64,000 nt of DNA, from positions 1,302,001 to 1,366,000 of the forward strand of contig JAMYGW020000011.1 of NCBI GenBank assembly GCA_025617375.2, in the 5' to 3' direction. Below the pieces are notes generated by a model. That model worked only from the letters and a program-made list of their open reading frames with translations, was not told where the DNA came from and made no database searches. Positions 11,668 through 31,144 of the stretch are shown one piece after another. The position numbers and the translations under genes were made by a program. Position 1 is the stretch's first letter; the number at the start of each line of letters is the position of its first letter. The DNA comes from Acarospora socialis (taxonomy: Eukaryota; Ascomycota; Lecanoromycetes; Acarosporales; Acarosporaceae).

Positions 11668-13740
11668 ACTCACATGGCTCTTCTCTGCTGGTGTGAAGCT
11701 ATCTATACCCATGTCTACATCCCGTGTCGTGATACTCAGTCAATCTCGGGCTACTCGTCCAGCCACTCAACAGTGGCTTATGGTTCCGAGGTTGTACACA
11801 ATGAAGGAGTCACCAGCACTTGAATCGAGAATATCCATGGAGACGTCCCAGAGACGAGATGGATGTCAACGACAGAAACCAACAATAGAACCTCATGAAC
11901 TTATCTCCAGATGACATCATCAACCGAAGGCCCTCTTAGGGTAAAATCATGCTTCTACATACACGTGCCTTGGAGCTCTCATCATTAAGAAAACCACATT
12001 AAGATACCACAACTCCCTTCCGCATCCTTATTGGACAGCCTCAACAACCAAACTCCAATCCCTGACTCGCACTCCCTTCCAAAACATCTAGCACCTCTCA
12101 GTCCTTGATCGCATCTTTCACGTTGAGACGGGCACTCGAGACGACCGTCGATCTGACACAGTCTGGACTTGCTTTATTGCGTCTTTTAGATTGAGATGCG
12201 CAAGATCACATTGGTCTTCGAACTTCTTTGCGCTGATGCTTTGATATCAGGTATTTTGCCGTATGACGCTGTCTTTGTCTCCACAGACTCACAGATGATT
12301 GCCTCCACTAGGCTCAACAGAGGCTTCCCTGTGTCATGCTGGCGATTTCTCCAGGCAACTCTCTTGTGTTACGGTTTTCCGCGATGTGGTTTAGGGATGT
12401 CTGTCTGTCTTTGTAGCCGAGATTTTCTTTTGCGAGAGTCTTCTTTGCACTGGCGGCTTTCTTCTTCGTGCCGTTGGTGTGATTGTATCTAGGATGAGTG
12501 ATAGAGAGTCGAGAAGAGTAGTCGATTTATAAGTTGGATGTATCGGAACCCGGGGCTGGACAGCCGAAGATACGTATAGTCTGCGGTTCAAACCATCCTC
12601 ACCCTCGTCGACACGGCCCATTACCGTTGGTGAGTTCTGGCCTCTCTCCCTCGCCAGACACTGAAAGGGTCGAGGAGGAAAGCACTCATTGTACTGAGAT
12701 CTCCAGCAACAGCCGCTCTTTATTCTTGGTTCATCGTCTTTATTCATCTCATTCTTCTCGAGAGCGATTGATCTGCATGTTCTTAAAAGCTCTTCATTGA
12801 TGAGATATTCATCCCCGGCAATGCCAAGATCCCTGTGTCCATCTTATGTCACTCAAGCCTTTATAAGCCGAAAGAGTCTGGGCCCTTGCCAAAGCAGGTT
12901 GACGGCTGATGAGGCCGTGATAGCGTTGAAGTTGACTGTTCAGTGTTCGTGGATTGACTGCATGATGGCAGCCCACGCAGATAAACAGATCAACTAAAGA
13001 AGGTATGAAGCGTCTTCAACAAATTCTTCAAAACCAACCCTGTGGTCCGGCTGTCTTGTTGTACATATACAGTCACTTTCGAAGAGCGCTTTCGCCTTCC
13101 CCATCTCGGGAACCTCTTAATCTCCCTTCACGGCGTTAAAGGGCGCTCCAAGAAGCGTTAAAGACTCAGTCAATCGCAGAGTCGGTCATGGGCTGAGCAC
13201 TGGTAGGGAAGGACACCAGGGAACTTCACAATCTATCTTCGCTGCCAGAAGAACCCGTTATTCTCAGGAAGTGGTCAAATGTAATCCATGCCTCTTCTGA
13301 AGAATTGGTGCCAGCTCGTGTAGATTGATAACATGTTGTTCAGTGGTTCCTGATCCGAGGGTCTTTCTAGCCCTGTCAACCGAGGAGTATCTTCGTTGTA
13401 GGGAGTCTTCCGAACGCTACTAAGGCCTGTGCTTTGTTCGAACTCATGGAACATACTTGTTCTTGTGGCCTTACATCATGGTGTGATGGTTTACCTCTCT
13501 GTAGACACAGGCAGATTTGAGCGACAGAGGATCTCCCAATTGCTCGTGCATCTTCACGATCATATGGTATTCACAGTTGCACAGTCTACATGAGCATACA
13601 TCAAAACACTGAACAACAATGTCATAACCCGGCGAACGCCAACGCACCACGAGAGAACACAACCACCGACACAACACCACCCACCCCGCCTCCGCCCCCC
13701 CTCACGCGGGTTCCTCCCCGGCTCCCTCCCCAGCCTCCTC
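11668..13740. other. gene-poor 2 kb, possible relic or noncoding transcript
   Basis: No intact gene was found. On the minus strand near 12060-12530 there is a TTATAAAT motif, then an ATG-less open stretch reading like protein (KKKAASAKKTLAKENLGY), and further down two related segments 68 bp apart that translate as LNLKDAIKQ and LNVKDAIKD in different frames. This could be a decayed gene or chance. The rest shows nothing. Confidence 0.35.
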
Positions 13741-13836
13741 TTACTCCTCTTCTTCCTCCTCCTCCTCCTCCTCCTCCTCCTCACTCTCCTCCTCACTCTC
13801 CTCCTCACTCTCCTCCTCACTCTCCTCCTCGCTACT
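13741..13836. repeat. TCC/TCACTC microsatellite coding for poly-Glu tail
   Basis: About 96 bp of CTC/TCC triplets and four 12-bp ctcctcactctc-type units form the 3' end of the gene at 13741-14439. Both units are multiples of three, so length changes would keep the reading frame. Confidence 0.85.
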
Positions 13837-14439
13837 CCCCCCACTACTCTCTCCCAGCTCCCGCCTCCTCCTGACTTCCTCCCCGCTCACCTCCCTCAAC
13901 CTCCTCCTCAAACTCCCACAAACCCTCCTCTGCACCTCCGCCCTCGCCGCCCTCCTCTCCCACCTCGCCTTCCTCCTCTCCAACTTCCCCTCCCACTCCT
14001 CCCCCCGCGCCGTCAACACCCTCTCCCTCCCGCGCAACCGCACCCACTCCCGCGCCGCACACTCCCACCGCCACGCCGCCATGTGCGCCACGAACGGCAG
14101 GCCCGGCAGGTCCGCCGCCCGCGCCGCCTGCAGTTCGCGCCACAGGCCCGCCGCGTAGTGCTGCTGGTCGTGCAGCGCGGTGCGAGCGGCGAGGAGGGAG
14201 GTGAGGATGCGGTTGTGGCGGCGGAGGGCGCGCTCGACGGCGGCTTCGAGGGCAGGGAGGGCGGTCACGTGCGCTTGGTAGGTGGCGAAGTGGCGCGCGT
14301 GCACGTCGCCGAGGGCCGTGACCGGGTCGGCGCCCGCGTCGACCGCGCCGAGCATCTCGCGGTATGCGCCGTTGATGGCGACTTGGATGGCGAGGCGGCG
14401 GGCGGTGGTGGTGGTGGGGGGTTGGGTGGAGGCACTCAT
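13741..14439 (-). CDS. alpha-helical protein with poly-Glu tail, unknown function
   Basis: This is a single exon of 232 residues starting MSASTQPPTTTTARRLA. Residues 10-130 are Ala-rich and helical, with evenly spaced charges. Residues 130-200 are strongly Arg/Glu-rich coiled coil. The last 35 residues are four SEEE-type units followed by about 14 Glu, encoded by a TCC-type microsatellite. GC is very high through the gene body, unlike the DNA on either side. The ATG at 14439 is the first in frame. I recognise no domain. The acidic C-terminus might bind basic proteins or be purely repeat-driven. It could be a lineage-specific gene; expression is not shown. Confidence 0.55.
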   Translation of the reverse strand: MSASTQPPTTTTARRLAIQVAINGAYREMLGAVDAGADPVTALGDVHARHFATYQAHVTALPALEAAVERALRRHNRILTSLLAARTALHDQQHYAAGLWRELQAARAADLPGLPFVAHMAAWRWECAAREWVRLRGRERVLTARGEEWEGKLERRKARWERRAARAEVQRRVCGSLRRRLREVSGEEVRRRRELGESSGGSSEEESEEESEEESEEESEEEEEEEEEEEEE

Positions 14440-15667
14440 GATGACGGCGTTGATGGTGAATATATGACGAGGGGCGTCTGTGCTTGTTTGGGGCGCTTGT
14501 TAGCGTACTGGAGTCCTCTTGCGGTTGAAATAACAGGAGTAAGACTGTGATTGGGCAGGGTTGTGATGTACTTAGGTTGATGAGTTAGGGCTGTGACGTG
14601 CTTTTGCTTCTGGAGAGCAGTCTGTGAACTGTATTGAGTGACTTACGTGAGGATTGCTTGGAAATGATATGAGGAGCTCCGAGTATACTTGAAAACAGGT
14701 GTTTAGAGGAATTGATCACAGAAGTTGAATAGTAACGTTTCCCTAGGAGAACTTCAATATGCTGGTATGGGTCGAGAGACGTTTGGTGATTCGGAGTAAG
14801 CTTTTGCGTGAATGTCTCCTTTAGAGCTTTGCAGATATGTAGAAGCTGTTGGTAAGAAAGCGAAGATCCAGATAAAAAGACCGTCACAGAAGTAGAGTAT
14901 AATGTCCGGAGAGGTCCTGTAGAGCAACGCTGGCGAAAAGGTGTCTAGCGTTCTGCTCTGTACGTTCGCGTGAAGAAGCTGTCTGAACTTAAAGTGTGCT
15001 TGAAACTGGAAATGTGTGTAGAACGCGTCGGTCAAAGAGGAGAGATCAGATTGAAAAGACCGGTCACAGAAGTGGACAAGTGGAGTAGTATATCCTGAGA
15101 AGTTCTGTATAGTAGCACTGGCGAAGGGACGTTTGGCGTTCTGATCTCGACCTTTGCGTGAATAAGTTCTCAATTTGAGCACGCGCGCAGCTGAGAAGTG
15201 TGCTTTAAGCTCAATCACAAAAGTAGGGTGTGGTGCTTTGAAGGTCCTGTAGAAAAATTCTTGGAGAAAATGGATGAAGATGTATGAGACCCGGTCTCAA
15301 ATGAGGACACTGATCCAAGTTGCGGTATGAGTAGAGGATTGTGCGCATGTCATGATGTGTCATGCGGTAGGATTGCAGTGTTATTGAAGCTTCGGAAGAA
15401 GCCTTTTGATCGAGCGCATTGTTGACTTGGAGATGATGAAGCCCGGTCGGAAGAAAGATCCTCCCTAATCAGGTTAGGAGAGAGAGGTAGCTCAGCTTGG
15501 AGATTCATTCCTGTAGGTCAAAGAAAGATAGCATATCACATCCAGCCGTAGAAGCGAGCGATCAGCATGTCATAGTCCTGAGAGTCCGTAATATCTTCAT
15601 TGATTTTGAGCCAATGTCCCCACGTCAATGTCTACATACTCGAAACGCAAAGGCCGCCAACACCTGG
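14440..15667. other. intergenic with diverged tandem repeat
   Basis: No gene is supported. The central part is filled by about four diverged units of a roughly 150-180 bp repeat (separate entry). The open frame on the minus strand at 14754-15218 reads through these units and is not considered a gene. Confidence 0.5.
14713..15275. repeat. diverged tandem repeat, unit about 150-180 bp, 3.5-4 copies
   Basis: Four spaced copies of a cacagaag-type core start at about 14717, 14885, 15065 and 15216. Each is followed after 20-30 bp by a gagGTCCTGTAGA-like block. The first three also have an ACGTTTGGCGTTCTG-like block, with spacing conserved apart from small indels. Copies differ by roughly a quarter to a third of positions by eye. 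There is no protein-level conservation of frame and no link to a known transposon. Confidence 0.65.
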
Positions 15668-25102: not shown

Positions 25103-26198
25103 TCAGTGCTTACTGTTGGGATGCATTCCGTCGGGGTGCATGCTCTCTGGATGCATGCTTTCGGGGTGCATGCTATTGGGGTGCATAGTGTCGGGATGCA
25201 TACTCTCCGGGTGCATGTTGTCGGGGTGCATGCCCTCGGGGTGCATACTGTCCGGGTGCATACTGTCAGGGTGCATGCTGTCGGGATGCATACTCTCCGG
25301 GTGCATGCCCTTGGGGTGCATGCTATCGGGATGCATACTGTCGGGATGCATGCTATCGGGGTGCATGCTATCGGGATGCATACTCTCCGGGTGCATTCTG
25401 TCGGGGTGCATGACCTGAATTCAGTGTTAGTCTTGATTATAAAAAGAGACATATTTGCCTTACTGCGGAGTTCTCTGGATGCATGGGGTGCATCTTTCGA
25501 AGCATCTCCCAGTCGGCATCGAGTGTTACGGCGGACACCACAACGACGGCATCCAGTGGGTAGTGATTCCTGATCATAGCCTCGCAGTGCTTCACGTGTC
25601 CCTCGGTATCGGCACGGAGTTCAAGGGTGACACCTGTGAAAGGCGCCCGAACGGCTTTCCGCCAATTGTAAGTGCAGTGCGCGATATGCCACTCCTTGGT
25701 GTTGTAGTAGTAAATCGGTCTGTCGGCAAGAGCGGCGACCTCATCGATTGTGTATGTACCACTCTTGTCGAGGTCCGTGTAGTAGACCCAGGAGCCATCC
25801 GGTTCGGGTCCAGCTCGGTCAAACTCCGCCGTGAGCTCCTCATCTCGGCATGCGGGAGGAAGCCAGGCTGAGGCCAATGTGTCGTATTCGCAATTGAGAG
25901 ACTTGGCTTCCTCGATGGAATTTCCACACGAACAAGAGGTCCTCTTGCTCACATGGAAGGTTTTCCACAGGTGACAGGTGACGTCGAAAATACTCCAACT
26001 AATGAGTAGCATCATGATGAATCTTAATGCCCATTTCCTTGCTCTGGACCAACGCGATGGACGAGGTCTGACAAACTCCAGTTCCTCGCGTCTGACGCAA
26101 ACATCGGCGTCCTCGTGACTGAGAAGCTTCTCGTACTCGATTTTCCCTCCATCTGCTTTGCAAAACGCAGACCGCCAAGCCGCAGGAAGGGACAACAT
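25103..26198 (-). CDS. UstYa-like double HxxHC membrane protein with MHPxx repeat tail
   Basis: There are two exons, 25464-26198 and 25103-25414, giving 348 residues. The 49-nt intron has donor GTAAGG, branch ACTAAC and acceptor TTCAG. The start is the ATG at 26198; the longer frame begins with TTG. A basic N-terminal region is followed by one TM helix at about 56-75 (WALRFIMMLLISWSIF), which suggests a type II protein. The outer domain has SCSCGN, WLPPACRDEEL, and two HxxHC motifs at 171-175 (HIAHC) and 201-205 (HVKHC). Paired HxxHC motifs are the mark of UstYa-type oxidases of fungal peptide biosynthesis. Other parts of the DUF3328 pattern are weak, so it may be a sister family. Exon 1 ends with MHPMHPENSA, and exon 2 encodes twenty MHPDS-type pentapeptides and stops after KH. 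Confidence 0.8.
25112..25411. repeat. 15-bp minisatellite, 20 units, coding
   Basis: The unit on the plus strand is like GGGGTGCATGCTATC, repeated without gaps. Variation sits mainly in positions coding the 4th and 5th residues of the pentapeptide. The ATGCA core is nearly invariant. All six frames are open across much of the array, because the unit is a multiple of three and holds no stop in any frame. Confidence 0.95.
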
Positions 26199-27846: not shown

Positions 27847-29204
27847 ATGGCAGTGACCGCCTCCAAGACAGAAGACGTCAAAAGTCGAGGTAACTTCAAG
27901 GAAATCTTCACCGGCCCCTCTGCCTATGACAAGAAGACGGAAGAGGAAGGGACAGAGGACCAACCCAGAGCTTCTGTGAGTATCTATAGCTGTCGTTGAT
28001 TCGCAAGGGACATCCGCTAATGCTTCTCAAGTATCCAAACTACCTTCCGACCTGGGATCACTCTGAGGTATATCCACCTCTAGAATCGTTCACCCATCAT
28101 GACCGCGGCCTCGACGCCGACCGCTCGCTCCCTGATCTGCTCCCTCCCGGTGTTGAAGTAGAAGAGCTGACTCCTTCGATCGGCTCTATAATCCGTGGCA
28201 TCCAACTCAGTCGCTTAAACGATCGCGGCAAAGACCAACTGGCCCTCCTGACTGCTCAGCGAAAGGTGCTCGTTTTTCGAGACCAGGACTTTGCCGACCT
28301 CCCCATTGACGAGGCTGTTGAGTTTGGCGCTTACTTTGGACGACTCCATATCATGAACATAAGCCCTTGTCCCAAGGGTCACCCCGAGGTCCATCTAGTA
28401 CACCGAGGTGCGGGTGATATGAGTGTACAAAAGGTGCTTGCAGGGCGAACGAACAGCGTTGTGTGGCACAGCGACGTGACGAACGAAGAGCAACCGCCAG
28501 GAACTACTATCATGTATATTCTCGATACCCCCAAGACAGGCGGCGATACTCTTTTCGTGAACATGGTGGAAGCCTACAATCGACTCAGTCCAGGCTTTCA
28601 ACAGAGGTTACACGGGCTAACGGCACTTCATTCGGGCATCGAACAGGCCGAATCTCAGAAAGCTCTGGGAGGCGTCTGTAGGAGAGAGCCGGTTGCCAAC
28701 GAGCACCCGATCGTCAGAACGCACCCCGCTACAGGAGAGAAGGCTTTATACGTCAATCCACAATGTAGGTCGAGTTTGCACTGCCAATTTCTTCAGGGAT
28801 CCGGCTAAGGACAGATTGACAGACACGAGGTATATTGTCGGATACAAAAAAGAAGAGAGCGATGCTTTGCTCAAGTTCTTGTACGACCATATAGCGTTTG
28901 GTGCCGATTTCCAGACTAGGGTGAAATGGGAGAAGGGGACTGTTGTCGTGTTCGACGTAAGCGCATTCCTCCTGACTATAGTCCCGAGAAGGGCTTGAAA
29001 CTAAGACGTACAGAACCGTGTGACCGGTCACTCTCCACTTGCCGATTTTCAGGTAGGTTACTGCAGATCATATAATGAGGGAAAGTTTCCCTGATGATCG
29101 AGTAGGGTCAACGCCGCCACTTGGCACGTCTCACCCCACAAGCCGAACGACCTTACGAGACTGCCTTCGCCGATGAGCCACGTGAAGTGATGAACGGCCA
29201 CTGA
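27847..29204 (+). CDS. TauD/TfdA-type 2-oxoglutarate dioxygenase
   Basis: There are five exons: 27847-27975, 28032-28764, 28823-28956, 29014-29052 and 29106-29204, giving 377 residues, the usual length of fungal taurine/sulfonate dioxygenases. The Fe(II) triad is visible: His189 and Asp191 in VVWHSDVTNEE, and His338 in RVTGHSPLAD. The 2-oxoglutarate-binding Arg lies in QRRHLARLTP. LVFRDQDF and GDTLFVNM are further family blocks. It probably oxidises a sulfonate or related small acid, releasing sulfite or an aldehyde, in sulfur scavenging; the exact substrate cannot be told. One exon is only 13 codons. It is followed in the same direction by an MFS transporter. Confidence 0.93.
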
Positions 29205-29719
29205 TTCCAGAGGGACAAGACTTCTTGCATTGTCGGGCGAAACGGTTTCCGGCAGAGGGGGATCGAGACCTTTAGCTGCTCCCGTTCACAGCATCGTTCT
29301 CCAGTCTTTAGCCTACCACAATCCACTCAATGTACGTAAAGGACATGACCTAGGAGTAGAAGTAGTCGGTTCTTGATAGCTTCAGAGGCGAGGAGCGCCG
29401 TTTCCACGAGGACTTGACTGGGGAACCCTAGGTGTTTGGATTGATGTGATGCTTTGTTACATGCCCTTGATCCCGTCCAAAGACTCCCAAAGTAACCCGA
29501 TCACTTCGTACATCCATGCCCACTCGGCTACACATCCCCGTATTGCGTTCTAAAGACGTCGTAGGAGGTTCTAAGCGATGCTGCGACGGTCCATTTCTAT
29601 CCAATCTCACAGTTGGGAGATTTTAGTCCGACTTCCAGTCAACGTCAGCGCTTCTTCGGACCCTCCACCTTTCTCTTGATTCTGATGCAACTTGCGTATT
29701 ACCCTGATGATCTTAAGGC
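29205..29719. other. intergenic between dioxygenase and transporter genes
   Basis: 515 bp with no supported gene. It holds the terminator of the first gene and the promoter of the second. Confidence 0.5.
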
Positions 29720-31144
29720 ATGGCTACCACGCAAAGCGCCTTGTGCGAGAAATTTTATCCGAAACTTGAATCAGCTTCTCCCGTATCCACTCCTGAGACA
29801 GGTGACAGCTCTGCCATTGAACCAAATGCTTCACGTTCCGGGAATCACTCGACCGGCCGGGGTTTGCTATCACAGATCTCGCAGCACGGGCTTCGAAGCG
29901 CGTTTGCCCGGATGAGGTCGTCAGATTCAGCCAACGATCCTGGGCCACCTCCTGACGGAGGGTTTCCCGCATGGAGCCAAGCCTTGCTCGGCCACCTCGC
30001 CATCTTCAACACTTGGGGCTTCATCAACAGCTTCGGCATCTTTCAGACATACTACACGCACGCTTTGAACGAACCGCCGGCCACCATCTCCTGGGTCGGC
30101 AGTGTTCAAATCTGGCTCCTCTTCTTCATCGGGACCTTTTCGGGCCGGGCCCTTGATGCGGGCTATTTCCGAGTCGTCTTCATCCTCGGCCAGCTGATGC
30201 AAGTCATCGGCGTCTTCATGACGTCGTTGGCGACGACTTACTGGCACGTTTTCCTCGCACAGGGTCTCTGCACCGGTATCGGGAACGGACTCGTCTTTTG
30301 CCCGTCGTTCGCCTTGCTCTCGGGCTACTTCTCTCGAAACCGAGCGTTGGCCATTGGCGTCGCGGCCTCGGGGTCCGCGACGGGCGGTGTCGTCTTCCCC
30401 GCCATTGCCGAGCGTCTCCTGCCGAGTATTGGGTTCCCGTGGACTGTCCGCGTGATTGGCTTCGTGATGCTCGGCACCATGTCTTTGACCGTCCCTTTCT
30501 TCAGGGCACGGACCCCACCGCGTAAAAGGGGGCCACTGGTCGAGTGGGCCGCATTCACCGAGATGCCGTATCTTCTCTTCTCAATCTCCATGTTCCTCAG
30601 TTTTTGGGGTCTCTACTTTGCCTTTTACTACATTGGCAGTTTCACCCGAGATGCGCTGGGTGCGTCACAACAAACGTCTATCAAAGTGCTGATGGTCATG
30701 AACGGCGTCGGTGCTCCGGGCCGCTTGATCCCGGGCTTCGTTGCGGACCGATATTTCGGCCCGTTGAACGCCTTCCTCCCGTTCGTGGTCATGGCAAGCG
30801 TGCTGTTATATTGTTGGGCTGCTGTTTCCAGCGTCGGAGCTAGCTACGCGTTTGCGGTTGTCTATGGCTTTTTCGCAGCGGGCATCCAATCGTTGTTTCT
30901 GGCTACGTTGAGCAGTCTTACCACGGACCCGTCCAAGACGGGAGTGAGGATGGGCATGGTTCTCACGGTCATCAGCTTGGCTACACTCACGGGCCAGCCT
31001 TTGGCCGGGGCGCTGATTCAGAGCAATGCGGGACATTATCTGAGGGCTCAGATGTTTGCAGCGTCTTCGATGGCCTTGGGTTTCGCCATTCTCGTAACGG
31101 CACGCTTTGCGAAAGTGGGAAGCGTGCTGAGGATCAAAGTCTGA
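29720..31144 (+). CDS. MFS transporter, monocarboxylate permease-like
   Basis: This is an intronless gene for 474 residues. A hydrophilic N-terminus of about 75 residues ends in PPDGGFPAWSQALLG, the DGG motif that opens fungal MCT-type permeases. About twelve TM helices follow. NTWGFINSFGIFQTYY in the first helix is the family signature, with GLCTGIGNGLVFCPS and the RNRALAIGVAASGSATGG loop after it, and GAPGRLIPGFVADRYFGP between helices 8 and 9. Substrates of such permeases range from monocarboxylates to secondary metabolites. Its neighbour suggests uptake of the dioxygenase substrate, or export, but this is inference. GC is noticeably higher than in the flanks, partly because it has no introns. 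Confidence 0.92.
   Translation: MATTQSALCEKFYPKLESASPVSTPETGDSSAIEPNASRSGNHSTGRGLLSQISQHGLRSAFARMRSSDSANDPGPPPDGGFPAWSQALLGHLAIFNTWGFINSFGIFQTYYTHALNEPPATISWVGSVQIWLLFFIGTFSGRALDAGYFRVVFILGQLMQVIGVFMTSLATTYWHVFLAQGLCTGIGNGLVFCPSFALLSGYFSRNRALAIGVAASGSATGGVVFPAIAERLLPSIGFPWTVRVIGFVMLGTMSLTVPFFRARTPPRKRGPLVEWAAFTEMPYLLFSISMFLSFWGLYFAFYYIGSFTRDALGASQQTSIKVLMVMNGVGAPGRLIPGFVADRYFGPLNAFLPFVVMASVLLYCWAAVSSVGASYAFAVVYGFFAAGIQSLFLATLSSLTTDPSKTGVRMGMVLTVISLATLTGQPLAGALIQSNAGHYLRAQMFAASSMALGFAILVTARFAKVGSVLRIKV

Follow-up and report, generated by a model that had tools for sequence, protein, structure and literature searches.

On the minus strand of the window, a 64,000-nucleotide stretch of the Acarospora socialis genome, a two-exon gene could be distinguished which starts with an ATG at position 26198 and encodes a predicted product of 348 residues. 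Exon 1 (25464..26198, minus strand) codes for a basic N-terminus, a transmembrane (TM) helix, a cysteine-containing segment, two HxxHC motifs and the first two MHP triplets, and exon 2 (25103..25414, minus strand) codes for twenty uninterrupted MHPxx units followed by KH and the stop codon. The exons are separated by a phase 0 intron of 49 nt (25415..25463, minus strand; GTAAGG ... GACTAAC ... CAG). As its length is not divisible by three, this intron has to be spliced out for the tail to be read in frame.

The tail incorporates 22 MHP triplets in total, two at the end of exon 1 (MHPMHPENSA) and 20 in exon 2, the latter forming consecutive units of exactly 15 nt each, which were also detected independently by Tandem Repeats Finder (25113-25412; 20.0 copies of 15 nt). 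The twenty uninterrupted MHP pentapeptides given in a preliminary description of this DNA were thus recovered in full, with two further MHP ahead of the intron. Met, His and Pro show zero replacements across the twenty units, with His encoded by CAC (13 units) or CAT (seven units) and Pro by four different codons. Of the 42 minority bases among the units, 34 fall on the third base of a codon in the MHPxx frame, a bias for which column permutation gives P = 0.004 in this frame and P = 0.012 for the best of the three frames. The array is beyond chance, and the differences between its units are mostly silent. The fourth position of the unit is acidic in 17/20 cases, with DS and ES as the unit flanks, and the 113-residue tail comprises 22 Met, 23 His, 18 acidic and three basic residues, a composition which makes it plausible that, as first suggested, a Met/His-rich tail supplies extra metal ligands. 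The MHPxx pattern searched for gave 18 matches over the entire 31.1-Mb genome, every one of them within this array, and the reversed control gave none. The window tail is free of any dibasic pair, in keeping with the initial statement that no KR occurs between the units; the last such pair is an RK at residue 234, ahead of the first MHP.

A search with residues 1-240 of the window protein yielded 75 relatives, and a search with an alignment of seven relatives yielded 32, partly overlapping with the former. Alignment A1 holds 73 rows (the window protein and 72/75 relatives, with P0036, P0046 and P0058 left out), and alignment A6 draws on 67/93 relatives. The ascomycete family so gathered (P0001-P0095 without P0076 and P0077) is sizeable, shares a conserved CxCG, an AWLPPxC and the paired HxxHC, and nearly all of its members are without a precomputed Pfam domain. 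Two members have unusual arrangements: in P0058 (Hirsutella minnesotensis, 570 aa) a PF11807 UstYa part is followed by a family member, either as a fusion or as two genes joined by annotation, and in P0008 (Aspergillus alliaceus, 425 aa) the domain occurs twice in one protein, with four HxxHC.

The TM helix proposed earlier corresponds to the most hydrophobic 19-residue stretch of the window protein (residues 57-75; 25974..26030, minus strand), which has basic residues upstream and lies within a predicted helix (residues 49-81) that would form a single TM anchor. Both HxxHC motifs were found where they had been placed and are conserved among the relatives. In the first (HIAHC, residues 171-175; 25674..25688, minus strand) H171, H174 and C175 are invariant in the 73-row alignment, and in the second (HVKHC, residues 201-205; 25584..25598, minus strand) H201, H204 and C205 are conserved in at least 90 % of the rows. 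Four extra cysteines upstream of the motifs (C89, C91, C103 and C117) are also conserved, and no cysteine occurs downstream of C205 in the window protein. The AlphaFold2 model of the domain has a pLDDT of 95 and a pTM of 0.88, and in this domain-only model and another model alike each motif is confidently predicted on a separate helix, the first on helix 168-188 and the second on helix 199-210. A KR pair lies directly behind the TM helix (residues 85-86; 25941-25946, minus strand), where a Kex2-type protease could release the domain; this position varies in the relatives, with KR, QR, ER, RR and TR among P0001-P0006. Furthermore, an EF-hand-like loop (DLDKSGTYTIDE, residues 142-153; 25740..25775, minus strand), which matches no Pfam family and whose pattern recurs in 8/93 relatives, may represent a calcium site. 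One relative, P0012, is labelled as EF-hand domain-containing in UniRef.

The preliminary description had linked the protein to the UstYa-type oxidases. The DUF3328/UstYa family shares with it the arrangement HxxHC(x)nHxxHC and the location of one motif per helix on two helices of the monomer, and has a single N-terminal TM anchor of the kind predicted here. The window protein differs in its Met-His tail and in the place of its conserved extra cysteines, which lie upstream of the motifs. The paired motif and the predicted anchor support the link. A Pfam scan of the window protein returned no family at E ≤ 1, and hence no PF11807, BURP or Ctr domain. UstYa matches at E ≤ 1 were obtained for 22/73 rows of alignment A1 (best E-value 7.1e-4), and six of ten relatives scanned singly match UstYa, with the best score (18.4 bits) below the PF11807 gathering cut-off of 25 bits. 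A precomputed Pfam domain is absent in 74/75 relatives, the exception being P0058 with its second, separate UstYa part. The genome contains 28 UstYa matches, which are exons rather than genes, with none at the place of this gene, and a genome search with the window protein found a single match, namely itself.

Profile-profile comparison using hhalign gave a probability of 18.1 (E-value 0.0013) against a four-row UstYa alignment, and 57.1 (1.1e-4) against 36 UstYa fragment rows from the same genome, some of which represent the same stretch. With a trimmed family alignment, the latter comparison reached a probability of 70.6 (3.9e-5) and a score of 36.8. This score may be set against maxima of 14.8 for 16 column shuffles and 28.7 for block shuffles (23/24 scored), and against 13.5 for the reversed profile. 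Masking of one motif lowered it to 20.8 or 24.0, and masking of both to 15.1, which suggests that the likeness to UstYa at the profile level rests on the two HxxHC motifs and their surroundings. Judged from its sequence the domain is UstYa-like, and formal membership of PF11807 is not established, because the PF11807 match is absent and the score collapses when the motifs are masked. Surveys built on PF11807 would probably miss this sizeable family of ascomycete proteins with paired HxxHC.

Copper use by UstYa-type oxidases, assumed in the preliminary description, is reported for CctR, a DUF3328 hydroxylase described in 2025 as a binuclear copper enzyme with two Cu per monomer (PMC12435403). 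Changes of its HxxHC residues abolish activity, which needs Cu(I) and O2, and in its model each HxxHC likewise occupies its own helix (PMC12435403, extract). CctR possesses C-terminal inter-chain disulfides, which the window protein, having no cysteine after C205, would not form; this trait may not define the family.

Six relatives were found to carry a tail of the same kind. These include P0001 (20 MHP), P0003 of Acarospora aff. strigata (8 MHP), P0009 of Zasmidium cellare (8 MHP), P0013 of Fulvia fulva (22 MHP) and P0082 (25 MHP), as well as P0079 of Glarea lozoyensis, which has seven MH and no MHP; the comparison of tail length proposed at the outset thus spans 8 to 25 MHP in five carriers. 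The carriers belong to the Lecanoromycetes, Dothideomycetes and Leotiomycetes. The Met-His-tail architecture is real and common to relatives in several fungal classes. The fusion had been presented as undescribed, and among the matches listed in the open-access literature (titles and abstract starts) none concerns a Met-His tail on a protein of the DUF3328 or UstYa-like kind; as a gene arrangement it is not unique, since the relatives of several classes carry it. In P0010 of Pyrenula (Eurotiomycetes; outside the tree) three MHP sit between the TM helix and the domain, and thus on the same side of the membrane as the domain.

For the domain tree and the tail counts P0010, P0028, P0074, P0093 and P0094, with fewer than two HxxHC, were dropped, so that 88 relatives remained. 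An MH-tail label was given to proteins with at least five MH in the last 200 residues, that of the window protein being assigned by hand. In the resulting tree (89 rows, 148 columns, many open forks) the window protein and the six carriers all fall within one 16-row clade (support 100/99); the chance that all six would occur among the 15 of 88 relatives in this clade is 9e-6 with relatedness ignored. The label changes six times on the tree (five changes are forced by starred branches), a number equalled by 56/500 shuffles. It is this high because 9/16 clade rows are without the label. Seven of these nine rows keep one or two MH at the start of the tail, P0081 ends inside the domain and the tail of P0007 is devoid of MH. 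The unlabelled rows probably represent gene models truncated where the intron begins. P0003 has the identical splice junction (ENSA/VMHP), and P0001, P0002 and P0004 read through with VRQ from the same junction point, as would be expected of an unspliced GTAAGR donor; in P0001 the read-through keeps the frame over 18 residues before it reaches the MHP array.

The carriers have the MH core in common, while flanks, spacing and copy number vary. The flanks are SE, SD and AD in Fulvia and DS and ES in the window, the units of P0009 and P0082 are irregularly spaced, and MH occurs without a following Pro in P0079. Such variation would suit a tail that arose by repeat expansion and has nothing to do with metals, serving for instance as a spacer or as a wall-contacting segment, and tandem arrays are known to grow by slippage. 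However, Met, His and Pro are never replaced in twenty units whose silent positions vary, and the MH core is retained in species with other flanks. A tail of this type, with no metal function, appears distinctly unlikely.

The suggestion in the preliminary description that the tail is a tethered, repeat-type substrate would make it a substrate in cis, with the domain modifying its own repeats. Repeat proteins do serve as fungal RiPP precursors (PMC12048977, extract), and an enzyme-like domain and a repeat array in one chain recall the fused burpitide cyclases (BURP) of plants, which combine a copper-type enzyme and a peptide stretch (PMC12186524, extract). A fused BURP cyclase was rejected as the identity of the window protein, for which Pfam finds no BURP domain and no family at all at E ≤ 1, and whose tail lacks aromatic core residues. 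The order of parts in BURP proteins also differs, the array of the window protein lying behind the domain. Similarly, a dikaritin-type fungal RiPP precursor, in which cores are split by Kex2-type dibasic sites, was rejected, as dibasic pairs are absent from the window tail. Across this tail and those of the six relatives such pairs occur outside the arrays only, with an RK directly ahead of the first MHP in the window protein, P0001 and P0003, and, in P0079, a single RR beyond the MH run. Aromatic residues number zero in the tails of the window protein, P0001, P0003, P0013 and P0082, one in P0009 and six in P0079, the last part of whose tail lies beyond the MH run. The irregular units of P0009 and P0082 and the missing Pro of P0079 also argue against a set of processed cores, and no RiPP gene was recognised among the 20 other window ORFs scanned. 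A role as substrate is deemed very improbable.

For the tail counts the domain was taken to end at a fixed distance of 32 residues, measured from where the second HxxHC begins. In 50/88 relatives fewer than eight residues follow this boundary, so that the domain generally manages without a tail. Outside the clade, with fusions excluded, 22/69 relatives have a tail of at least eight residues; His makes up 16.9 % of these tails as opposed to 3.8 % elsewhere in the proteins that bear them, and Met, at 4.2 % against 2.7 % (P = 0.045), is hardly enriched. Within the same set, 13/69 relatives have at least three His behind the domain. When members of the MH clade are included, 30 tails contain 14.2 % His. 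In 19/88 relatives the final 25 residues after the domain contain at least three His, as compared with 8.9 % of 17,600 stretches drawn at random from these proteins.

The balance tips slightly towards a copper oxidoreductase-like protein, anchored in the membrane, in which a disordered tail of Met, His and acidic residues would collect copper on behalf of the paired-HxxHC site. The protein would cross the membrane once, with its domain probably facing the lumen or the outside. The UstYa-like site, spread over two adjacent helices, probably takes up copper (a pair of ions, by analogy with CctR) and would catalyse an oxidation that depends on O2. As an intramolecular copper collector, the disordered Met-His-Pro-Asp/Glu tail at the C-terminus would capture Cu(II) by way of His and the carboxylates, with Met promoting and retaining Cu(I), and would maintain a local copper pool for the adjacent site, as distinct from handling copper in general. 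This reading is favoured because the tail repeats the residue types of the human CTR1 clusters. The His-Met-Asp clusters of CTR1 bind copper in its Cu(II) as well as its Cu(I) form and maintain it in the reduced state, and its N-terminus resembles the tail in being a disordered stretch of a membrane protein with many Met, His and acidic residues (PMC8867124, extract). CTR1 is a transporter with short clusters, whereas the window protein has a long regular array on an oxidase-like domain. A Ctr copper transporter was rejected as its identity in the absence of a Ctr domain or any Pfam family at E ≤ 1. The bacterial CopI also has a disordered His/Met-rich region, whose affinity is higher for Cu(II) than for Zn(II); however, that stretch is short, forms no tandem array and is borne by a cupredoxin-like protein (PMC13308877, extract). 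Further points in favour of the copper-collector reading are the conserved motif residues and their place on separate helices as in CctR, the persistence of the MH core, the grouping of all carriers in one clade, the three MHP of P0010 on the domain side of the membrane and the His-rich tails outside the clade. Confidence in it is lowered by the label count on the tree and by the weak enrichment of Met outside the clade, and the weak relation to UstYa, the many relatives with hardly any tail and the lack of a recognised biosynthetic core gene nearby also count against it.

A more specific proposal, offered tentatively and doubted rather than held, is that of a self-supplying copper enzyme, a UstYa-like oxidase with its own Cu(I) donor in the form of a Met-His-Pro-acidic repeat array. 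The authors of CctR propose an accessory partner supplying Cu(I) or electrons, and leave the source of either in the oxidising compartment open in the extracts available (PMC12435403). If true, self-supply would explain within one protein how such an enzyme obtains reduced copper in an oxidising lumen, and the naturally tailed relative makes the question testable.

Of the 45 ORFs of at least 180 residues in the window, a count which includes overlapping frames and this gene, 20 others were scanned. Among those recognised are Iki1, Sld7, TauD, MFS, GH63, CLPTM1, Med6 and a proteasome subunit, and none of these 20 ORFs was identified as the core gene of a polyketide, peptide or RiPP pathway. Ordinary recognised neighbours such as Elongator Iki1, the proteasome subunit, CLPTM1 and Med6 in place of a biosynthetic core, the single match of the window protein in its genome and the recurrence of the tail in several classes would all be compatible with a copper-handling factor at the membrane (a buffer, scavenger or sensor), in which domain and tail both just bind copper and no oxidase is present. 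Against this, the identical motif pair forms the oxidase site in CctR, and W112 is invariant in the 73-row alignment and W108 matters for the activity of CctR, the two positions not being mutually aligned (PMC12435403, extract). We regard such a factor as unlikely, and retain the copper oxidoreductase-like protein with a copper-gathering tail as the preferred reading.

Two other features of the window were observed. Genes for the TauD-type dioxygenase and the MFS transporter adjoin (27990-28808 and 29717-31144, plus strand), are divergent from the tailed gene and possibly form a small pathway of their own. A CCT-rich repeat at 13734-13872 represents the long Glu-rich C-terminus of a minus-strand ORF (13741-14499).
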